The translations under genes and the position numbers were made by a program. Under the pieces are notes generated by a model. That model saw nothing but the letters and a program-made list of their open reading frames with translations, ran no database searches and was not told the DNA's origin. Below are positions 1 to 9,781 of a stretch of DNA of 9,781 nucleotides, one piece after another (within the stretch, counting starts at the first letter, position 1; every line of letters starts with the position of its first letter). The DNA is taken from positions 1 through 9,781 of the forward strand of contig JAFSFU010000299.1 of assembly GCA_017435025.1 (NCBI GenBank), given 5' to 3'. The stretch comes from Lachnospiraceae bacterium. Its GTDB lineage: Bacteria; Bacillota_A; Clostridia; Lachnospirales; Lachnospiraceae.

Positions 1-1524
1 GTAAGCACCGATGTGCTGTGTGATACCGCCTGCCTCACGTGCAGTTACGTTTGTCTGACGGATTGCATCCAGAAGGGATGTTTTACCATGGTCAACATGA
101 CCCATAACACAGATAACCGGCGGTCTTGCAGTCATATCGTCTTCGCTCTCTTCTTCTTCTTTTAAGAGTTCCTCGATTACGTCAACTTTCTCTTCCTTCT
201 CGCAAAGTACATCGTACTCCATTGCGATCTCTTCTGCCTTTTCGAAGTCGATCTCCTGGTTGATGGTTACGATGGTGCCCTGTAAGAATAATTTCTTAAC
301 GATCGCGGACGGCTGCAATTTCATCTTGTCAGCCAGATCCTTAATTGTGATAACATCCGGAATTACGATGGTCTTAACTTCCTCAACCTTCGCCTCTTCC
401 TTCTTCGGCGCCTGCATAACCGGAGCTTTAAAGCCCTTTCCGCCCTTGCCGTTCTTACCGCCTCTCATCTCGTCATCGCGGTCTTTCTTCGCATCCTGCT
501 CCTTCTTGTAAGCATTCTTGGATGCCTTTGTATTCTGCTGCTTCTGATTGATCGGAGTCTCAAAAGTTGGCTTCGGAATGCTCAGACCGCCCTCGCGTCT
601 CTGGCCGCCACGGTTCTGACCGCCCTCTCTGCCCTGCTGAGCGTCTTTATTGAAGCCGCCTTCACGTCTCTGACCATCTCTCGGCTGACCATCACGGTTC
701 TGGAAACCGCCTTCACGTCTCTGACCGTCTCTCGGCTGGAAGCCGCCTTCACGTCTCTGACCGTCTCTCGGCTGGAAACCGCCTTCACGTCTCTGGCCAT
801 CTCTCGGCTGGAAGCCGCCTTCTCTTCTCTGGCCGTCTCTCGGCTGTCCATCACGGTTCTGGTAACCGCCCTCGCGTCTCTGACCGTCTCTCGGCTGGAA
901 ACCGCCTTCTCTTCTCTGACCATCTCTCGGCTGGAAACCGCCTTCTCTTCTCTGGCCATCTCTCGGCTGTCCGTCACGGTTCTGGAAACCGCCTTCTCTT
1001 CTCTGACCGTCTCTCGGCTGGAATCCACCTTCGCGTCTCTGGCCGTCTCTCGGCTGTCCATCACGGTTCTGGTAACCGCCCTCGCGTCTCTGGCCGCCTT
1101 CTCTTCTCTGGCCGTCACGGTTCTGATAACCGCCTTCACGTCTCTGACCACCCTCACGGTTTGCTGCCGGAGCTGCCTGTGTGTTTTCCTGTACCGGTGC
1201 TTTTGTTTCAACCTGCGGCTTTGCTGCCGGAGTCTCTGTCTGAACCGGAGCTGCCTCCGGAGTCTTTGTCTCTGTCTGCGGTTTTGCCGGTCTAGTGCCC
1301 TGCGGCTTCTGTCCCTGCGGTTTCTGACCTGCCGGACGGCTCTTCTGCTGCGCACTGTTCTGCGGACGATATACCGCTGCAATTCTCTTCTTTGCCGGAG
1401 CTGCCTGCTCGCCTGCAGCGCCAGCCGGATTCTTTACTTCTTCATTATTCTTCTGCAAGATATCACTACCCTCTTTATTTGTCTTTTCTAAATCTTTCGC
1501 CAACTCGTTCACCCTCGCTTTCAC
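1..1524 (-). CDS. infB: Translation initiation factor IF-2, N-terminal part (runs off left edge)
   Basis: IF2 is the GTPase that brings initiator tRNA to the 30S subunit and promotes 50S joining. 508 codons are visible. The start is a GTG at 1524 whose G is also the last base of the ylxQ TAG stop. The first residues ([13 protein letters not shown]) resemble the short IF2_N helical motif. Residues 123-313 are an Arg/Gly/Gln-rich repeat tract, followed by a Lys-rich linker. A second IF2_N-like module lies at about 389-435 ([13 protein letters not shown], then [15 protein letters not shown]). The GTPase domain begins with [19 protein letters not shown] (P-loop GHVDHGKT at residues 475-482), then switch I region [11 protein letters not shown], where the window ends. 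The N-terminal extension of about 470 residues is long for IF2 but common in style for Clostridia. The upstream ribosome binding site is weak, so translation probably depends on coupling to ylxQ. Identity is certain; the exact start is slightly less so, because an in-frame GTG four codons later at 1512 is an alternative. Confidence 0.97.
586..1158 (-). repeat. In-frame tandem repeat tract inside infB (RREGG / RDGQ repeats)
   Basis: The protein motif GQRREGG occurs 14 times. Two interleaved units are seen: a 12-residue (36-bp) unit of the form [12 protein letters not shown] and an 18-residue (54-bp) unit that inserts NRDGQP, with F/Y alternating before Q. Copies differ mostly at synonymous sites (for example ACG/TCT/GCG in the + strand reading), so the tract is imperfect DNA but nearly uniform protein. 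All unit lengths are multiples of three, so copy-number changes would keep the frame. The region is strongly charged, glycine-rich and presumably disordered. It lies between the IF2_N-like motifs and has no known catalytic role. Confidence 0.95.
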
Positions 1525-3792: not shown

Positions 3793-3902
3793 ACCTTTCA
3801 TTTTTCACTGTTCTTCCCCCGCATCCGTGCGTGTCTTATGGAAAATCACAATCTGCCGCCCAGACAGACCCTTTCCATCGGATTGGAAAAAGATATAAAA
3901 CG

Positions 3903-3934
3903 AAAGAGTGGACTTCTTGTTTCGTCCACTCTTT
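3903..3934 (-). terminator. Perfect 11-bp hairpin upstream of rimP (terminator or leader hairpin/attenuator)
   Basis: AAAGAGTGGAC at 3903-3913 pairs perfectly with GTCCACTCTTT at 3924-3934 around a ten-base loop. On the minus strand it is followed by CGTTTTATATCTTTTT, a broken U-rich run. It could terminate transcripts from the upstream cluster. Because the best promoter-like sequence lies just upstream of it (3949-3991), it could instead be at the 5' end of the rimP-nusA-infB mRNA and act as an attenuator or stabilising hairpin. The inverted repeat is seen directly; its role is inference. Confidence 0.6.
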
Positions 3935-3948
3935 ACAACCAGTTACAT

Positions 3949-3991
3949 ATAATACCATAGCTATATTATCACAAGGTAATGAAAAATGCAA
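3949..3991 (-). promoter_or_regulatory. Candidate promoter(s) for the rimP-nusA-infB operon
   Basis: This AT-rich block, read on the minus strand, holds two overlapping sigma-A-like candidates. One is TTGCAT (3986-3991), 17 bases, TAATAT (3963-3968). The other is an extended -10, TGGTATTAT, with the -10 TATTAT at 3949-3954 and a TTGTGA (3969-3974) 14 bases upstream, short for a -35 but tolerable with an extended -10. No better candidate is seen between here and the rimP start. None matches consensus fully. Confidence 0.45.
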
Positions 3992-4005
3992 GCAATTTCT
4001 TGCTT
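3982..4005 (-). terminator. Weak terminator candidate after the coiled-coil gene
   Basis: On the minus strand AAGCAA-GAAA-TTGCTT (3990-4005) forms a six-bp stem with a GAAA loop, then GCATTTTTC. It begins 12 bases after the stop codon of the gene ending at 4018. The stem is short and AT-rich, so termination would be inefficient. It overlaps the -35 of one rimP promoter candidate. Confidence 0.35.
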
Positions 4006-4017
4006 CTTCTTAATTCT

Positions 4018-4764
4018 TTACTCATTCTCACTGAGTTCCTCCGGCGCAAGGAGATATTCTCTGGCATCTGCGAACCTCTCCAAATTCATTTCCAGTGCTC
4101 GAATCTTACCGCGAAGCTTCATCCTCCTTGTTAAAAACACCGTATCTTCCGCATGCCCCAACGCTTCAATTCTCGCCTCCAGATCCTGTATCATTTCCTG
4201 TGACCGTTTTTCCAGATGTTCCGCCTGTTCGATGTGATTTAGACAATAGTTTCTGCAGGCAGCTTTTCCTCTCTCCAACCTCCTCTTTCGATCCTGTTTT
4301 TCCTGACGGAGTCGCTCTTTTTCCGCTTCTTCCGGAGTCGGAACCTTCTGCAACCAGATGTACAAATACTCTTCCGCATCATCCGCTGAACCGAAATACC
4401 CGACATCTGCACGGATACGATACTCCCTGTCATCATGATAATTATAGTAAACATCGTCTTCCTCACGAAGGATCGTAATTTTCTTTTCTTCGCACAATCG
4501 AAGCAGAGGCTCTTTTTTCTCCCCCAGTCCATTTACAGCTTTCTCAGACACACAGATTGCAAAACTGTTACAAGTTCTGTCGAATCCGTCCATTTCCTCA
4601 ACCAATGCTAAAACCGCATCATCCAAAGAAATATCTTCTTTCAGATCAAACCACTGGTCAAAGGTATGATCCTCGATTCCGTCATAGCGGTTTATATCGA
4701 TCTGTTTCTCATCCAGATATCCTTTTTTAGGTTTTAAATACTTTTTATACTTATATTCTTCCAT
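4018..4764 (-). CDS. Unknown protein with charged C-terminal coiled coil, last gene of T7SS-associated cluster
   Basis: I do not recognise the family. 248 residues, no signal peptide or membrane segment, very rich in Glu, Lys and Arg. The N-terminal part (1 to about 140) looks like a compact alpha/beta domain with an acidic helix (DDAVLALVEEMDGF), a strand-like NSFAICVSEKAV and a Tyr/Asp-rich segment (DDVYYNYHDDREYRIRAD). From about residue 143 to 237 it is almost continuous charged helix (EEAEKERLRQEKQDRKRRLE and onward), likely coiled coil, with Cys170, Cys174 and a short break near 203. The start is the ATG at 4764, with GAGGG six bases upstream; a GTG one codon earlier is too close to that site. 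It lies 12 bases after the membrane protein gene, so the two are probably cotranscribed and may act together on the cytoplasmic side. Function unknown. Confidence 0.85.
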   Translation of the reverse strand: MEEYKYKKYLKPKKGYLDEKQIDINRYDGIEDHTFDQWFDLKEDISLDDAVLALVEEMDGFDRTCNSFAICVSEKAVNGLGEKKEPLLRLCEEKKITILREEDDVYYNYHDDREYRIRADVGYFGSADDAEEYLYIWLQKVPTPEEAEKERLRQEKQDRKRRLERGKAACRNYCLNHIEQAEHLEKRSQEMIQDLEARIEALGHAEDTVFLTRRMKLRGKIRALEMNLERFADAREYLLAPEELSENE

Positions 4765-4770
4765 CACATA

Positions 4771-4775
4771 CCCTC
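4771..4775 (-). promoter_or_regulatory. Ribosome binding site of the coiled-coil gene
   Basis: GAGGG six bases before the ATG at 4764. It lies immediately after the stop of the membrane protein gene and decides against the GTG at 4767. Confidence 0.65.
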
Positions 4776-4776
4776 A

Positions 4777-5508
4777 TTACGAAAATGACCACGTACCGAT
4801 CAGTTCAACATCCTGCACCCGGTCATTCATCGTCTTTACCGTAACCTCGTATTCCCTGTCTTCAGTCACATCCAAGAATGTATACGGTCCTGTATGCATC
4901 ACAATATGCATTCCCTCTTTTAAGCACTGTTTATAATAGAAGTCATCACATCCCTTCAATGACTTTTCCGAAGACACACGAATATGTACTTTGTTCGGAG
5001 CAAAGTCTTTGCCAGTAGGATGTGCTTTTCTCCACGCAAGATATGCCTGATACTTGCGGATCGCCAGCTGGACCGACGCCTCATTTGGAACATAATAAAA
5101 CTGATCCACATCTGTATCGTCCTGAAGTTTATTATAATAAATTGTCTCAAGGTCATACGCCGCAAACGGCTTTCGATCTTCCGTCAATAATGGTTTCAAT
5201 TTCTTTCTCAGTTCTTCTCCCTGAGCTTCCCATTCTTCCGAATTCGTTTCTCCATCCTTTATACATGGCTTAAGTTCCTGTTTCTGCAGAGTTGAATTTC
5301 CCTTCCAAAGACGCCAACCAAATTTCACGACATAAACAGACATCACTGCGTATCCCGCAAAAAATACCGCAGGGGGTACAGTCTCACCAGCCACAGAACT
5401 CTCAAGCTTTCCCGTAACTGCTGCAAAAAAACAGATAACAGCACTCACACAAAACACACCCGCGAAGATCATGAGCAAAACACCCAGTACTTTTTTCATT
5501 GCTCTCAT
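4777..5508 (-). CDS. Unknown two-helix membrane protein of T7SS-associated cluster
   Basis: I do not recognise the family. 243 residues. Two hydrophobic helices are seen at about 7-31 (VLGVLLMIFAGVFCVSAVIC) and 46-63 (PAVFFAGYAVMSVYVV), separated by a short loop with GKLESSVAGE, then the basic KFGWRLWKG. The remaining 175 residues are soluble, with Tyr-rich segments (ETIYYNKL, DQFYYV, DDFYYKQC) and a predicted strand-rich end (YTFLDVTEDREYEVTVKTM). Lys/Arg just before helix 1 and after helix 2 suggest both ends face the cytoplasm. The ATG at 5508 has AAAGGA 12 bases upstream; a second ATG at 5499 has a poorer site. It sits 38 bases after the phosphatase and 12 before the coiled-coil gene. It might be a membrane component or an anchor for the phosphatase module, but nothing in the sequence proves this. 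Confidence 0.86.
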   Translation of the reverse strand: MRAMKKVLGVLLMIFAGVFCVSAVICFFAAVTGKLESSVAGETVPPAVFFAGYAVMSVYVVKFGWRLWKGNSTLQKQELKPCIKDGETNSEEWEAQGEELRKKLKPLLTEDRKPFAAYDLETIYYNKLQDDTDVDQFYYVPNEASVQLAIRKYQAYLAWRKAHPTGKDFAPNKVHIRVSSEKSLKGCDDFYYKQCLKEGMHIVMHTGPYTFLDVTEDREYEVTVKTMNDRVQDVELIGTWSFS

Positions 5509-5546
5509 CAGTTACCAGAATCCTTTCATTCATATACCAAATTATA

Positions 5547-6374
5547 TCAGCAAGATTTTAGTAGCGATTTCAATTTACCGAAAAAACCGGCTTGCTCTTG
5601 TTTTTCCTCCGTCACCTGGCACACGATCACCGTCACGTTATCCCTGCCTCCATGTTCCAGTGCCTGTTCTACCAGACGATCTGCCTGTTCTTTCGGACTT
5701 CCCTGCTGCAGGATGTTCACGATTTCCTCATCTGTTACCATATCCGTCAATCCATCACTGCACAGAAGAAACATATCCCCGCCCTTCAAACAGATTTCCT
5801 CTGTAAATGCCGGTTCAATCCTCATCTCATCCTCAAAAATCCCCAAATGCTGTGTTAAAACATGACGGCTTTTATGGGTTTTCGCCTCCTCCGGCGTCAA
5901 TACTCCCATGGCAACCAACTGGCTTACCCGATTGTGGTCTACCGAAAGCTGTTCCAGTTTTCCATCATGCATTCGATATACACGGCTGTCTCCCACATTG
6001 CAGCAGACTGCCTTATCTTCTTCTATATACAAAGCGGCCAACGTTGTTCCCATGCGTTTGCCGTTATTCTTTTCTATTTCATTACAGATCTCTGCATTTG
6101 CCCTCTGAATACAGGCAATTGCCGTTTCCTTCACCTGCTTTACCGGACATGGTTTTAATGCTCGAACCGCGATTAAGGATGCCAGTTCCCCTTGCGTTTC
6201 ACCGCCCATGCCGTCACAAACAGCCGCAAGAACCCGACCCGCAGTTTCCGACCCTTGAAAACAAACCTGATTTTCATTCACGTCTGTACGAATCTTCCCA
6301 TTCCAGTAAAAATTGTCCTCGTTGTTCTCTCGGATTTTTCCCTGGTGAGTACGCACCGCATAGTTCAGTTTCAT
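5547..6374 (-). CDS. PP2C-family (PPM) serine/threonine protein phosphatase
   Basis: A metal-dependent PPM phosphatase that would remove phosphate from Ser/Thr residues of proteins in the cytoplasm. 275 residues, a catalytic domain of usual bacterial size (about 245) plus a short basic tail (FFGKLKSLLKS). Family motifs are present in order: RENNED at 15-20, VCDGMGG at 52-58, MGTTL at 108-112, NVGDSRVY at 126-133, LCSDGLTD at 204-211 and GGRDNVTVIV at 242-251. The metal-binding aspartates (D20, D54, D207, D245) are therefore all in place, predicting an active enzyme. The start ATG lies 14 bases after the previous gene, with GGTGA upstream. Such phosphatases normally oppose Hanks-type kinases or act on FHA-binding phosphoproteins. 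None is in this window, but FHA domains occur in the EssC ATPase of T7b systems, so a regulatory role in secretion is a reasonable inference. Confidence 0.96.
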   Translation of the reverse strand: MKLNYAVRTHQGKIRENNEDNFYWNGKIRTDVNENQVCFQGSETAGRVLAAVCDGMGGETQGELASLIAVRALKPCPVKQVKETAIACIQRANAEICNEIEKNNGKRMGTTLAALYIEEDKAVCCNVGDSRVYRMHDGKLEQLSVDHNRVSQLVAMGVLTPEEAKTHKSRHVLTQHLGIFEDEMRIEPAFTEEICLKGGDMFLLCSDGLTDMVTDEEIVNILQQGSPKEQADRLVEQALEHGGRDNVTVIVCQVTEEKQEQAGFFGKLKSLLKSC

Positions 6375-6388
6375 CTTATTTCACCCAT

Positions 6389-6937
6389 TTAGGCCATTGC
6401 CTTTTTCAACCATTTCCGTTCATAGAACAGGTCCATATGCTCAGAAAACACCGATTCCTGCTCCTCGCTTCCGTCAAGCTGCCACTTTTTTTCAATCGGA
6501 TTCCCTTCTTCGTCCAGTGTCATTGTAACCAAAAGTCCATCTGTCTCCTGTTTCAGGCTTTCCATGACAAACCTCCGGCATCCGGCGGCACTGACAAGCG
6601 TCATAGACCAGAAATCTCCGTCTTTTTCAAGATATAAAATATCCACCGGTCCTAAAATATAATACTGTGTTCGTTTTTCGTTCTCAAACTTCATTGCCGA
6701 ACGCGCATTCTTTACGTTATACATCATACGGGCCAGCTTTCTTGTCGGATGCAGAAGACCGTCAAAATCCAAAACCACCATATCATTGGACTCCCAACGA
6801 TCCCGCACGTCCAAATATTCATCGGATGTAAGGGCAATCTTTTTTGTCCACTGAGGCAGCAGCCAGCTACCGGCCTGCTTATACATTGCCAGCATATGAA
6901 CAAATTCTTTTGTACTCTGGAATTGAATCACGGACAT
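6389..6937 (-). CDS. Unknown 182-residue protein between WXG100 and PP2C genes
   Basis: I do not recognise the family. 182 residues, soluble, no signal or membrane segment. It starts with a helix-like segment (STKEFVHMLAMYKQAGSWLL), then a mixed alpha/beta region with strands MVVLDFDGLL (53-62), QYYILGPVDILYLEKDG (91-107), FWSMTLVSA (109-117) and LLVTMTLDEEG (135-145), and ends with a basic helix (FYERKWLKKAMA). The ATG at 6937 has AAGGGGG about eight bases upstream. It follows the WXG100 gene by 89 bases, a gap containing a hairpin, and precedes the phosphatase by only 14 bases, suggesting that it belongs to the phosphatase expression unit. A chaperone or adaptor for the WXG100 protein, or a phosphatase partner, are possibilities supported only by position. 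Confidence 0.85.
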   Translation of the reverse strand: MSVIQFQSTKEFVHMLAMYKQAGSWLLPQWTKKIALTSDEYLDVRDRWESNDMVVLDFDGLLHPTRKLARMMYNVKNARSAMKFENEKRTQYYILGPVDILYLEKDGDFWSMTLVSAAGCRRFVMESLKQETDGLLVTMTLDEEGNPIEKKWQLDGSEEQESVFSEHMDLFYERKWLKKAMA

Positions 6938-6960
6938 CTCTCATCCCCCTTTTCTCGATG

Positions 6961-7019
6961 GAAGCAGGCCCGAACCTTCACATCCGGGCCATTTTTCCAT
7001 AGAAATATAAGATTGCTTC
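6961..7019 (-). other. Nested inverted repeats between WXG100 gene and the downstream genes
   Basis: GGCCCG (6967-6972) pairs with CGGGCC (6985-6990) around a 12-base loop. Flanking GAAGCA (6961-6966) also pairs with TGCTTC (7014-7019), closing a larger structure with a 23-base bulge. Read on the minus strand the strong stem is not followed by a U-run (TGCTTCCATCG follows), so it is not a classical terminator in the direction of transcription. The ATTTTT run follows it only on the + strand, where no gene is seen. It may be an mRNA-processing or stabilising structure at the 3' end of the WXG100 message. Confidence 0.5.
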
Positions 7020-7026
7020 TGCGAAA

Positions 7027-7323
7027 TTAGATATTTTCGAAACGCTGTGTACCGCCTGCGATCACGTTTCTCTGATCCTGTGCGTATGCTTTCATAGCCT
7101 GAGAAAATGCATTTAACGCACCGATATAGTTTGTCATTGTAGCTTTGAACTGCTCATGCTTTGCCTCAAAAGCTGCCTGCGGACCACCCTGCATATTGCA
7201 GTCTGCTGTTTCACGAACCAGATTTCCGAGTGCCATCATCTCTGCTTCAAAATTTCCTGCAATTACATCCAGACGAGCTGCTGCACTTTCTAATCCTTCA
7301 ATATTAACACTGCTTGTACCCAT
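7027..7323 (-). CDS. WXG100-family (EsxA-like) protein with M-Q-G in place of W-x-G
   Basis: A small secreted-type helical-hairpin protein of the ESAT-6/WXG100 superfamily, the hallmark substrate and component of type VII secretion. 98 residues, the typical length. Pattern: helix 1 (EGLESAAARLDVIAGNFEAEMMALGNLVRETADC), turn, then helix 2 (PQAAFEAKHEQFKATMTNYIGALNAFSQAMKAYAQDQ), followed by a short tail. The turn reads N-M-Q-G-G at residues 43-47, so the family tryptophan is replaced by methionine (M44) while the glycine and the following AAF are kept. The C-terminal export motif Y-x-x-x-D/E is only approximate (Y80, with D at +3 and Q at +4). The ATG at 7323 has AAGGAG seven bases upstream; upstream in-frame ATGs overlap that site. 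It lies 78 bases after the 528-residue gene. Confidence 0.9.
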   Translation of the reverse strand: MGTSSVNIEGLESAAARLDVIAGNFEAEMMALGNLVRETADCNMQGGPQAAFEAKHEQFKATMTNYIGALNAFSQAMKAYAQDQRNVIAGGTQRFENI

Positions 7324-7330
7324 AATCATT

Positions 7331-7336
7331 CTCCTT
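7331..7336 (-). promoter_or_regulatory. Ribosome binding site of the WXG100 gene
   Basis: AAGGAG with seven bases to the ATG at 7323. It fixes the start at MGTSSVNIEG rather than the in-frame ATGs at 7341 and 7329. Confidence 0.8.
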
Positions 7337-7401
7337 CTCATTCTTCATTATTTGAATGCTTTTCGCATCATTTACTTTACTTGTTGTCATTAAAACGGGA
7401 A

Positions 7402-8988
7402 CTACTTTGCATTTACAAGGTCGCCCATATTTACCTGATCAAAGACATGCTTTGATGTCAGTTCAAACTCCGTCGGGAGATTGTTGAGTTCCTCCAGCTT
7501 CTCTGTTGCCAGAATATACCATTCCGATTTCTTATCATCCACGATCTTCAGAATATTCTCATATTCCTGTTTCTTTGTGATCACAAGAATATCATATAGG
7601 TCATTGGCACGCTCCACATCTTCCGCCGTCGCAACTCCCTGCTCCATCAGCGAAACATAGTTCTCGAAGGTTCTGGTCAGAACTCCATCGTACTGATACA
7701 GGCCCATTAGTGTATTCATTGCTCCGGTTTCTTCGCCCCAGGCAATCTTAGCTGCACCACTGATCAGATCCATACCAACTGTTACCTCTTTCAATCCCGG
7801 AATCTCACTGACCAGCTTCATAGCTTCGCCAAAACTCCAATCATACATATTTTCGCACATCTTAGCCGTAAAATATTCCATGTTGTCCGAGTACAAACGT
7901 TCCAGCTCCTCGATCTTTTCAATCACAACACCACTGGTAAATCCACTGATTTCTAATGACTCTCGGAAAGACTCCAGATACCCCACTTGGACAGAATGAT
8001 TACTCATCAAATGAAAGATCATTTTTGTTCCAAACTCCATATATTCCTGGATATCCATCACTATGCCGGCACCCTTGACAAATCCTTTTGAATTCTCGAC
8101 CACATATCCGGCTCCAACGACTCCATTGATCAGATTTTCAAAAAAAGTAGCCAGTCCAGGCACTTTATAGAATTGATATTGCATATCCTTATATGTATCT
8201 AAGAGTCCCTCATACATGTCCGGATCAACAGTTCCATTTGCCTCGTCAATCGTTTTTAATGTCTTTATGAACATCTTCATCAATTGCCCCAGGCCCTGAA
8301 TACCAACTTTTTCACCGAGAGCATCCCAATCGACTACTTCATAATCCACATCCGCACCTTCATATCCCGGAAGTTCCTTTAACATACTTTCCAGAGAAGC
8401 AGTCAGAGCATTATTCATCAATTCGTAATTTCCATCACCAATGCCAAGTCCATTTCCAATAAACTCCCAGTAATTCTCTTTATTGGAAAACTGTGTGGCA
8501 CCCCATTTATTACGTGTAGATTTTCCATATTCAGAATTCCAGATAAATGCACCCAGATCATTGTAATCCACCGAGAAAGACTTTCCGGACTGCAGCATAT
8601 TATACGCCGGTGAGAGATCATAATCCGGTCCCTCTTCCAGTTCAACCTCATAAATTTCAGCAAAACTTGGGCCATTATAGGTATCGGATCCGCCGTCAAT
8701 CTGATCCGCTCTGTTTTTCGCATCTTCCTGCGCCTGCTCCCAGTCTTTCAGATAGGCATCCATTGCTTCTCTAAGATCGGTCAAACGTCTCTGTGCCTCT
8801 TTGAATCGGGCAACTCCGGCACTTACTTCTCCCGATGAGTCATAATGATTCATCATCTCCTGGAGATAATAATGGTCTGCCGAACCAAACATCCGAATAT
8901 TGCAGTCGCTGAAGCACTGCGCGGCTTCCTTTAGAAATCCCTGATTCTTTACAAATCGTTCTTTATCCAGATATTCTACTGTTCCCAC
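7402..8988 (-). CDS. Unknown 528-residue helical protein in T7SS cluster; candidate secreted substrate or component
   Basis: I do not recognise a named family. 528 residues, acidic, no classical signal peptide. The N-terminal 100 residues are predominantly helical (VKNQGFLKEAAQCFSDC; RFKEAQRRLTDLREAMDAYL) and end in a Gly/Asp linker (DQIDGGSDTYNG). This resembles the WXG/LXG-like helical N-termini of T7SS substrates, without a clear WXG motif. A Gly/Asn-rich segment follows (GNGLGIGDGNYEL at 178-190), then a small-residue hydrophobic stretch at 277-312 (LINGVVGAGYVVENSKGFVKGAG), a second at 400-425, and a long helical end (about 430-500, including TKKQEYENILKIVDDKKSEW). No toxin active-site motif is visible, so it is not a recognisable polymorphic toxin. 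The start is a GTG at 8988, with AAAGGAGG seven bases upstream. It sits between yukD-like and WXG100 genes, which argues for a structural component, chaperone or substrate of the system. Confidence 0.88.
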   Translation of the reverse strand: MGTVEYLDKERFVKNQGFLKEAAQCFSDCNIRMFGSADHYYLQEMMNHYDSSGEVSAGVARFKEAQRRLTDLREAMDAYLKDWEQAQEDAKNRADQIDGGSDTYNGPSFAEIYEVELEEGPDYDLSPAYNMLQSGKSFSVDYNDLGAFIWNSEYGKSTRNKWGATQFSNKENYWEFIGNGLGIGDGNYELMNNALTASLESMLKELPGYEGADVDYEVVDWDALGEKVGIQGLGQLMKMFIKTLKTIDEANGTVDPDMYEGLLDTYKDMQYQFYKVPGLATFFENLINGVVGAGYVVENSKGFVKGAGIVMDIQEYMEFGTKMIFHLMSNHSVQVGYLESFRESLEISGFTSGVVIEKIEELERLYSDNMEYFTAKMCENMYDWSFGEAMKLVSEIPGLKEVTVGMDLISGAAKIAWGEETGAMNTLMGLYQYDGVLTRTFENYVSLMEQGVATAEDVERANDLYDILVITKKQEYENILKIVDDKKSEWYILATEKLEELNNLPTEFELTSKHVFDQVNMGDLVNAK

Positions 8989-8995
8989 CGGTCTC

Positions 8996-9003
8996 CCTCC
9001 TTT
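8996..9003 (-). promoter_or_regulatory. Ribosome binding site of the 528-residue gene (GTG start)
   Basis: AAAGGAGG, seven bases before the GTG at 8988, one of the strongest sites in the window. No in-frame ATG competes nearby. Confidence 0.8.
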
Positions 9004-9011
9004 CTGCGACT

Positions 9012-9266
9012 CTATACAATCTGCATTTCCAGTATGCTTCCGTCATAAATTCCACACTGTTCCATTGTACACTCCGGCATCAGTTTTCTTCCGTCGAAAT
9101 ATAATTGAACTTCTTTGTTTTGAAGGGTGATTCCCTGAAATTTCAATTTTGCTGCAGCTTTGAACATTGGAAGCCAGTTTTGCACCGAAACCATGGACGG
9201 AATCTCAAAATCCTCCTCTTGTCCGTTCCAGCGAACCGTCACGATTACCATTTCCGGTATTTTCAT
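9012..9266 (-). CDS. YukD/EsaB-like ubiquitin-fold T7SS protein
   Basis: A small ubiquitin-like protein of the YukD/EsaB type, found in T7b secretion loci of Firmicutes and required for or regulating secretion there. About 84 residues. The beta-grasp pattern is visible: strand MVIVTVRWNG, strand EDFEIPSMVSV, helix VQNWLPMFKAAAKL, strand EVQLYFDGRKLM, then CTMEQCGIYDGSILEMQIV, in which the G-I-x-D-G-x-x-L ending is typical. No C-terminal di-glycine is present, so it is not expected to be conjugated. The upstream gene's TGA overlaps the start (ATGATG), and GGGGAGG lies six bases before the ATG at 9266; the ATG at 9269 is a possible alternative, and an in-frame ATG at 9287 is unlikely. It is probably translationally coupled to the preceding WXG-like gene. 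Symbol withheld because orthology to yukD is by fold pattern only. Confidence 0.86.
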   Translation of the reverse strand: MKIPEMVIVTVRWNGQEEDFEIPSMVSVQNWLPMFKAAAKLKFQGITLQNKEVQLYFDGRKLMPECTMEQCGIYDGSILEMQIV

Positions 9267-9706
9267 CATTTTCCTCCCCAAATCCATTCAAAAAGGTCAA
9301 CAGCATCGTCCTTCACGACTTTGCCAACTTTCTGAGCATCGCTTAGTGCTTTCTCTGCAGCGCTGACTTGATCCCGCTTTTTCTCAAACTTCTTTTCAAG
9401 CTGCTTTTCGATCGTATGAAGTCCTGCAAGGATATCGTCCTTCGCTCCGACAAATTCATTGTATAATTCCCGCAGCTTATGTTCAAATGCATCCGCACTC
9501 TGTCCCTGCCAGAATCCGTAACTTTCTTTCTGCCGTAGAACTCCATACATGTGATGTAGTCCCATACAGCCTTCTCTTGCTGCATAGTTCGGATGCTCAC
9601 CATTAAACTCCCATTCCACATCCTGAATACATGCGCGGCAGCGTTCCAGTTCATCGGCAATTTCCATCATCTCATCATATAACTTTTCATACTCTTTGAC
9701 AGTCAT
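9266..9706 (-). CDS. WXG-like helical protein (146 residues), T7SS-associated
   Basis: A small, almost wholly helical protein with a WXG100-type turn. The N-terminal helix (MTVKEYEKLYDEMMEIADELERCRACI) is followed by an insert with EWEFNGEHPNYAAREG, then GFWQGQSADAFEHKLRELYNEFVGAKD, where W66-Q-G68 and the following ADAF match the WXG100 hinge and start of helix 2. A charged coiled coil (KQLEKKFEKKRDQVSAAEKAL) extends to about 130. At 146 residues it is longer than classical WXG100 proteins (about 100) and has an extra segment before the WXG turn, so it may be a WXG-related partner or chaperone rather than the main EsxA. The ATG at 9706 has AGGA seven bases upstream. Its stop TGA overlaps the next gene's start. 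The preceding gene ends 21 bases upstream. Confidence 0.87.
   Translation of the reverse strand: MTVKEYEKLYDEMMEIADELERCRACIQDVEWEFNGEHPNYAAREGCMGLHHMYGVLRQKESYGFWQGQSADAFEHKLRELYNEFVGAKDDILAGLHTIEKQLEKKFEKKRDQVSAAEKALSDAQKVGKVVKDDAVDLFEWIWGGK
9273..9279 (-). promoter_or_regulatory. Ribosome binding site of the YukD-like gene
   Basis: GGGGAGG inside the last codons (Trp-Gly-Gly-Lys) of the upstream gene, six bases before the ATG at 9266. The Trp-Gly-Gly end of the upstream protein thus doubles as the site that loads ribosomes on this gene. Confidence 0.75.
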
Positions 9707-9727
9707 GAATCTATCCTGTCTCCTCTC

Positions 9728-9781
9728 CTAGCCATGCATCCAGCGGAAGAATATTGCATCGGTATCACTCAGAACCAAACA
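9728..9781 (-). CDS. 3' end of an unknown upstream gene (partial)
   Basis: Only 17 codons and a TAG stop are visible at the right edge, encoding a C-terminus LVLSDTDAIFFRWMHG. The other two minus-strand frames contain early stops or no plausible end, and this stop lies 21 bases before the next start, matching operon spacing. The protein is too short here to identify. By position it could be a core T7SS gene (for example an EssC- or YukC-type protein) or another substrate. Confidence 0.45.
   Translation of the reverse strand, partial: CLVLSDTDAIFFRWMHG

Follow-up and report, generated by a model that had tools for sequence, protein, structure and literature searches.

The available sections of the paper by Garrett, Higginson and Palmer (2024; PMC11217815) distinguish ten types of type VII secretion system (T7SS) in all. 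They ascribe PPM phosphatases to types c, e, f and j, and EspG-like proteins to types c, h and i, to most members of a and to some of b, with the T7SSc text being the only one to name both a phosphatase and an EspG-like protein. The parts given there for T7SSc are one WXG100 protein (A), a YukD-like protein (B), an ATPase without FHA (C), a membrane Ser/Thr kinase (D), a vWA protein (E), a cytoplasmic PPM phosphatase (F) and an EspG-like protein (G; TscG, recognised only by its fold). The same sections describe YukD-like proteins as machine parts and raise phosphorylation control of such systems as a possibility, citing kinase-dependent regulation of the Enterococcus faecalis T7SSb. Here, we analyse a 9,781-nucleotide stretch of DNA deposited as Lachnospiraceae bacterium (GenBank assembly GCA_017435025.1, contig JAFSFU010000299.1; this whole stretch is referred to as the window), in which eight open reading frames (ORFs) at 4018-9706, all on the minus strand, form a cluster with a PP2C phosphatase, a WXG100 protein and a protein of EspG-like predicted fold. 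We consider it reasonably probable that this cluster is the end of one transcription unit encoding part of a phosphatase-plus-EspG type VII system for which T7SSc is the nearest described type, based on the family assignments of the PP2C and the WXG100 protein, a YukD match that is marginal, the predicted EspG-like fold, a terminator-like hairpin and indirect signs of linkage in relatives.

With respect to the T7SSc parts as described, the cluster contains counterparts of A (gene 4), F (gene 6) and G (gene 5), matched by family or fold rather than by orthology, and a marginal candidate for B (gene 2), where other ubiquitin-fold families match alongside YukD. It differs in having a second, WXG-like protein (gene 1, below the family cut-off), a 528-amino-acid helical protein (gene 3), a membrane-anchored protein (gene 7) and gene 8. 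The cluster is thus T7SSc-like, belonging either to T7SSc or to a neighbouring type. An initial annotation of this DNA had proposed a type VII cluster built around an intact PP2C phosphatase, which agrees with our results, but its assignment to T7SSb is not supported: Pfam finds no match to the EssB pseudokinase, EsaA, EssA or an FHA-bearing EssC at E ≤ 1 among the eight genes (the scan covers the window), and the combination of phosphatase and EspG-like chaperone is that published for T7SSc.

The phosphatase gene (gene 6, 5547-6374, minus strand) encodes a soluble PP2C/PPM Ser/Thr phosphatase, scoring 56.5 bits against PF13672 (cut-off, 24) and 207 bits against the Stp1/IreP model NF033484 (cut-off, 230), and PstP-type enzymes of known structure align to it at an E value of 3e-36. 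The protein carries NNEDN, DGMGG, GTT, GDSR, CSDG and GRDN, which we take to be the PP2C catalytic motifs, and a hydropathy scan detects no hydrophobic segment. The 182-amino-acid product of gene 5 (6389-6937, minus strand) is predicted to share the EspG chaperone fold over most of its length when its structure model is compared with EspG structures (TsxG-like, as gene 6 is TsxF-like). The model was built on 11 close sequences and is of moderate confidence (predicted local distance difference test score [pLDDT], 71.8, with residues 19-26 and 29-33 below 50). Compared with EspG of the mycobacterial ESX systems (T7SSa), a chaperone that holds secreted pairs such as PE/PPE by their helical tip and guides them, the similarity lies in this predicted fold and in the presence of genes for helical proteins next to that of the chaperone; gene 5 is, however, shorter (182 versus 257 to 297 amino acids for most EspG chains matched) and has no sequence likeness to EspG, and gene 3 is not a PPE protein by any test run.

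Among the small proteins, gene 4 (7027-7341, minus strand) is a WXG100 protein by family score (PF06013, 30.9 bits; cut-off, 27.3), with a start more likely at 7323 or 7329. The 146-amino-acid gene 1 protein (9266-9706, minus strand) falls under the same cut-off (19.7 bits, E = 1.1e-3) and is likely a helical-hairpin partner of the Esx/Lap type. The W-x-G motif is distributed inversely to the scores, being present in gene 1 (WQG, residue 66), the weaker match, and absent from gene 4, the stronger. Gene 2 (9012-9287, minus strand) encodes a YukD/EsaB-like ubiquitin-fold protein that is just under the PF08817 cut-off (26.5 versus 27.0 bits) and above that of PF11976 (Rad60-SLD, 27.0 versus 23.8 bits), with the ubiquitin family below its cut-off and ubiquilin providing its PDB matches (best E = 1.3e-4). 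Its start is likelier at 9266 or 9269 than at 9287, since a ribosome-site-like sequence is found there; this start would overlap the stop of gene 1. The WXG-like, YukD/EsaB-like and WXG100 proteins named in the initial annotation are thus all seen, the first two below their family cut-offs and the third above it.

Gene 3 (7402-8988, minus strand) encodes a 528-amino-acid protein that is all-helical in a low-confidence model (pLDDT, 60.7), with an N-terminal hairpin (about residues 9 to 95) and a variable centre, and we treat it as a candidate substrate or helical core part. We observe at least 12 homologues among 7,998 scored candidates; of the matches listed, 10 are near full length at 57 to 91% identity, one is a fragment (P0022) and one has 29% identity. 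In an alignment of the window protein with 11 homologues (P0022 omitted), conservation, assessed with P0023 left out, peaks in the N-terminal portion and across residues 430-495, while the middle (about 232-330), 364-396 and the tail are variable. This pattern is unlike that of a polymorphic toxin and is not proof of a core part. No WXG/LXG family match, no Pfam or NCBIfam family above its cut-off and no informative match of the model to known structures were found. Gene 7 (4777-5508, minus strand; 243 amino acids) has a strongly hydrophobic N-terminal segment consistent with a membrane anchor (hydropathy windows above 1.6 across residues 2-36, maximum 2.84) and a soluble remainder, and gene 8 (4018-4767, minus strand; 249 amino acids) has no hydrophobic segment. 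Neither reaches a family cut-off in Pfam or NCBIfam, and in PADLOC and PHROGs genes 3, 5, 7 and 8 yield nothing apart from a single weak PADLOC row for gene 7 (E = 0.017). Where four proteins had earlier been called unassignable, this stands for genes 3, 7 and 8, and gene 5 now has its EspG-like predicted fold.

Conservation of the gene set was approached by searching for homologues of the proteins of genes 3, 5 and 6 and, as a stand-in for linkage, comparing the size in bases of the longest contig of each cluster. Three exact sizes are common to the gene 5 list (11 rows) and the gene 3 list (12 rows). The PP2C protein has 1,134 matches at 1e-40, of which the best 120 were compared; the best 11 have four sizes in common with the gene 5 list and two with the gene 3 list, and the other 109 have none in common with either. 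Identities to the window for genes 3, 5 and 6 are 68, 80 and 81% at 11,947 bases and 57, 71 and 73% at 5,042 bases; for genes 5 and 6 they are 87 and 87% at 23,768 bases and 70 and 77% at 24,703 bases, where the contig numbers (6 and 3) also agree between gene 5 and PP2C rows, and for genes 3 and 5 they are 59 and 69% at 2,648 bases. Chance agreement of such sizes is unlikely, and the identities fall broadly together across relatives, although not in strict order. The many rows without a matching size say little, because each cluster is represented by its longest contig alone; this contig measures 191,726 bases for the PP2C relative P0024 and 307,025 bases for the gene 3 relative P0015. These indirect signs suggest that the PP2C, the EspG-like protein and the 528-amino-acid protein remain linked in relatives. 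As to the linkage between PP2C and WXG genes on which the initial annotation had made its reading depend, the sizes indirectly tie the PP2C to both neighbours of the WXG100 gene, genes 3 and 5, and not to the WXG100 gene itself. The remaining PP2C relatives (P0035 to P0143) form a large group, mostly at 50 to 60% identity; these could point to further secretion loci or else make up a phosphatase family of general function.

Pattern scans of GTDB species-representative contigs matched 26 stretches with gene 5 and 55 with the gene 3 alignment, none of which were confirmed, and scans of viral contigs likewise gave no confirmed match for the gene 3, gene 5 or PP2C alignments, nusA, P0023, gene 6 or gene 8. 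Plasmid records gave no match for genes 3, 4, 7 and 8, for P0023 or for P0057 at 1e-40, the whole window had no match among phages, and no description of such a gene set was found in literature titles and abstract openings.

All 13 genes of the window lie on the minus strand, and the eight complete co-directional genes already noted in the initial annotation stand upstream of a rimP-nusA-rnpM(ylxR)-L7Ae-infB run. Within the cluster, genes overlap or are separated by fewer than 40 bases, with two exceptions of about 60 and 90 bases. Between gene 8 and rimP, a terminator-like hairpin with a T-rich tail (3934-3886, minus strand) closes the cluster, having an 11-bp stem, a 10-base loop, a folding energy of −16.4 kcal/mol and a z score of −4.6 (0 of 200 shuffles as good); it is missing from the output of a simple terminator scan because its loop exceeds the 3 to 8 bases permitted. 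From this hairpin, the eight genes probably are the end of a separate transcription unit. The final 75 bases of the window, upstream of gene 1, hold no complete gene, and the beginning of the unit lies beyond the edge.

If the cluster works as its parts suggest, the helical gene 3 protein would have one of the small hairpin proteins, that of gene 4 or that of gene 1, as its partner, in the manner of PPE with PE and of EsaD with EsxB/C/D, and the EspG-like protein would cap this pair and pass the complex to an EssC/EccC-type ATPase encoded beyond the window, on which the YukD-like protein would dock. By dephosphorylating a Ser/Thr site on which a partner kinase acts, the PP2C could determine when export takes place, with genes 7 and 8 as putative cluster-specific accessory or regulatory parts. 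Phosphorylation-controlled secretion, as put forward in the initial annotation, is a reasonable idea and not a new one, having been proposed for such systems in the available text of the 2024 paper (PMC11217815). As far as searched, what is new is the narrow gene 3 family and the extra parts. The cluster adds a group not recovered in the GTDB contig pattern scans to the type VII systems with a phosphatase and an EspG-like chaperone, names genes 3, 4 and 5 as a candidate escort-cargo set, and offers a further place where phosphorylation control of type VII secretion may be studied. If the exported protein is conserved and has no toxin end, this would suggest that type VII secretion also serves purposes beyond killing rivals. 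It is possible, if doubtful, that the locus represents an undescribed T7 subtype, so far seen in a small bacterial set absent from the scanned species-representative contigs, in which the PP2C gates export of the conserved non-toxin 528-amino-acid helical protein on its EspG-like chaperone with dedicated genes 7 and 8.

Several observations weigh against a T7SSc-like system. No secretion ATPase is found within the window, as was noted before (the genes outside the cluster being rimP, nusA, rnpM, an L7Ae-like gene and the truncated infB), and the Pfam scan finds no kinase, vWA protein or DUF6382-FHA (J) protein among the eight cluster genes, with the window ending 75 bases upstream of gene 1. 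The EspG assignment comes from the moderate-confidence model, with no support from sequence or family searches; gene 1 is under the WXG100 cut-off, gene 4 is without W-x-G, the YukD match is marginal, and gene 3 has neither an informative fold nor a WXG/LXG family match. The available T7SSc description has one WXG100 protein and names nothing like genes 3, 7 and 8. The linkage signs are indirect, with most rows having no common size and only the longest contig per cluster compared, and both the gene 3-gene 4 pairing and the phosphatase target are proposals. Finally, the best PADLOC match of gene 6 is a candidate anti-phage defence protein model (PDC-M21C, E = 1.1e-9), and another role is therefore possible.

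The missing ATPase would also fit a satellite substrate island, in which genes 1 to 5 provide an exported helical protein, its partners and an EspG-like chaperone, the ATPase is encoded elsewhere in the genome, and the PP2C and genes 7 and 8 serve a separate function. In the accessible part of its description (PMC10653861), the T7SSb cassette EsaD-EsaE-EsxB/C/D likewise places an EspG-fold chaperone recognised by structure, EsaE, in the company of genes that encode small hairpin proteins and a long protein whose N terminus is helical, and the few gene 3 homologues point the same way. The window cluster differs from that cassette in having a PP2C and no recognised toxin domain or immunity gene, and the island is unlikely since, in four other clusters, the contig size of a PP2C relative recurs for gene 3 or gene 5, and YukD-like proteins are, in the sections available, parts of the machine (PMC11217815). 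Still less probable is that the cluster belongs to one of the remaining types for which a PPM phosphatase has been published, namely T7SSe, f or j: the same sections give all three a phosphatase and a YukD-like protein, and T7SSe always a second WXG100 protein, but describe none of them with an EspG-like protein (PMC11217815), and the J protein is absent among the eight cluster genes, the region covered by the scan being the window.

The score of gene 6 close to the Stp1/IreP cut-off could indicate a housekeeping PrpC/Stp1 phosphatase that stands beside secretion genes by chance, which we regard as the most improbable of these readings. Gene 6 has 246 matches in plasmid records, all below 60% identity, and two clostridial loci were picked for comparison from the 40 listed, both on plasmid-typed records with core genes. 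In each, the PP2C follows rlmN and lies next to, and ahead of, a PASTA kinase gene (L001, 12016-14833, unannotated ORFs by our own reading; L002, 10001-12801, annotated), whereas gene 6 has neither neighbour. These PP2Cs are 33% and 36% identical to gene 6, and the WXG100 family was found in neither of the two records. In addition, the closest gene 6 relatives among the matches listed have contig sizes in common with the EspG-like protein.

Two further observations concern the rimP-nusA side of the window, where infB is truncated by the left edge. In the 216-base gap before rimP (window 3840-4017), a weak hairpin comes first, followed by an AT-rich stretch that resembles a promoter (TTGTGATAATATAG, spotted by eye and absent from the terminator scan output) and then by the strong terminator-like hairpin; together these elements might act as an attenuator for the rimP-nusA unit. 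In infB, the translation of window positions 500-1170 reads as the N-terminal region of an IF-2 in which RREGG-type repeats recur many times in nearly identical form.
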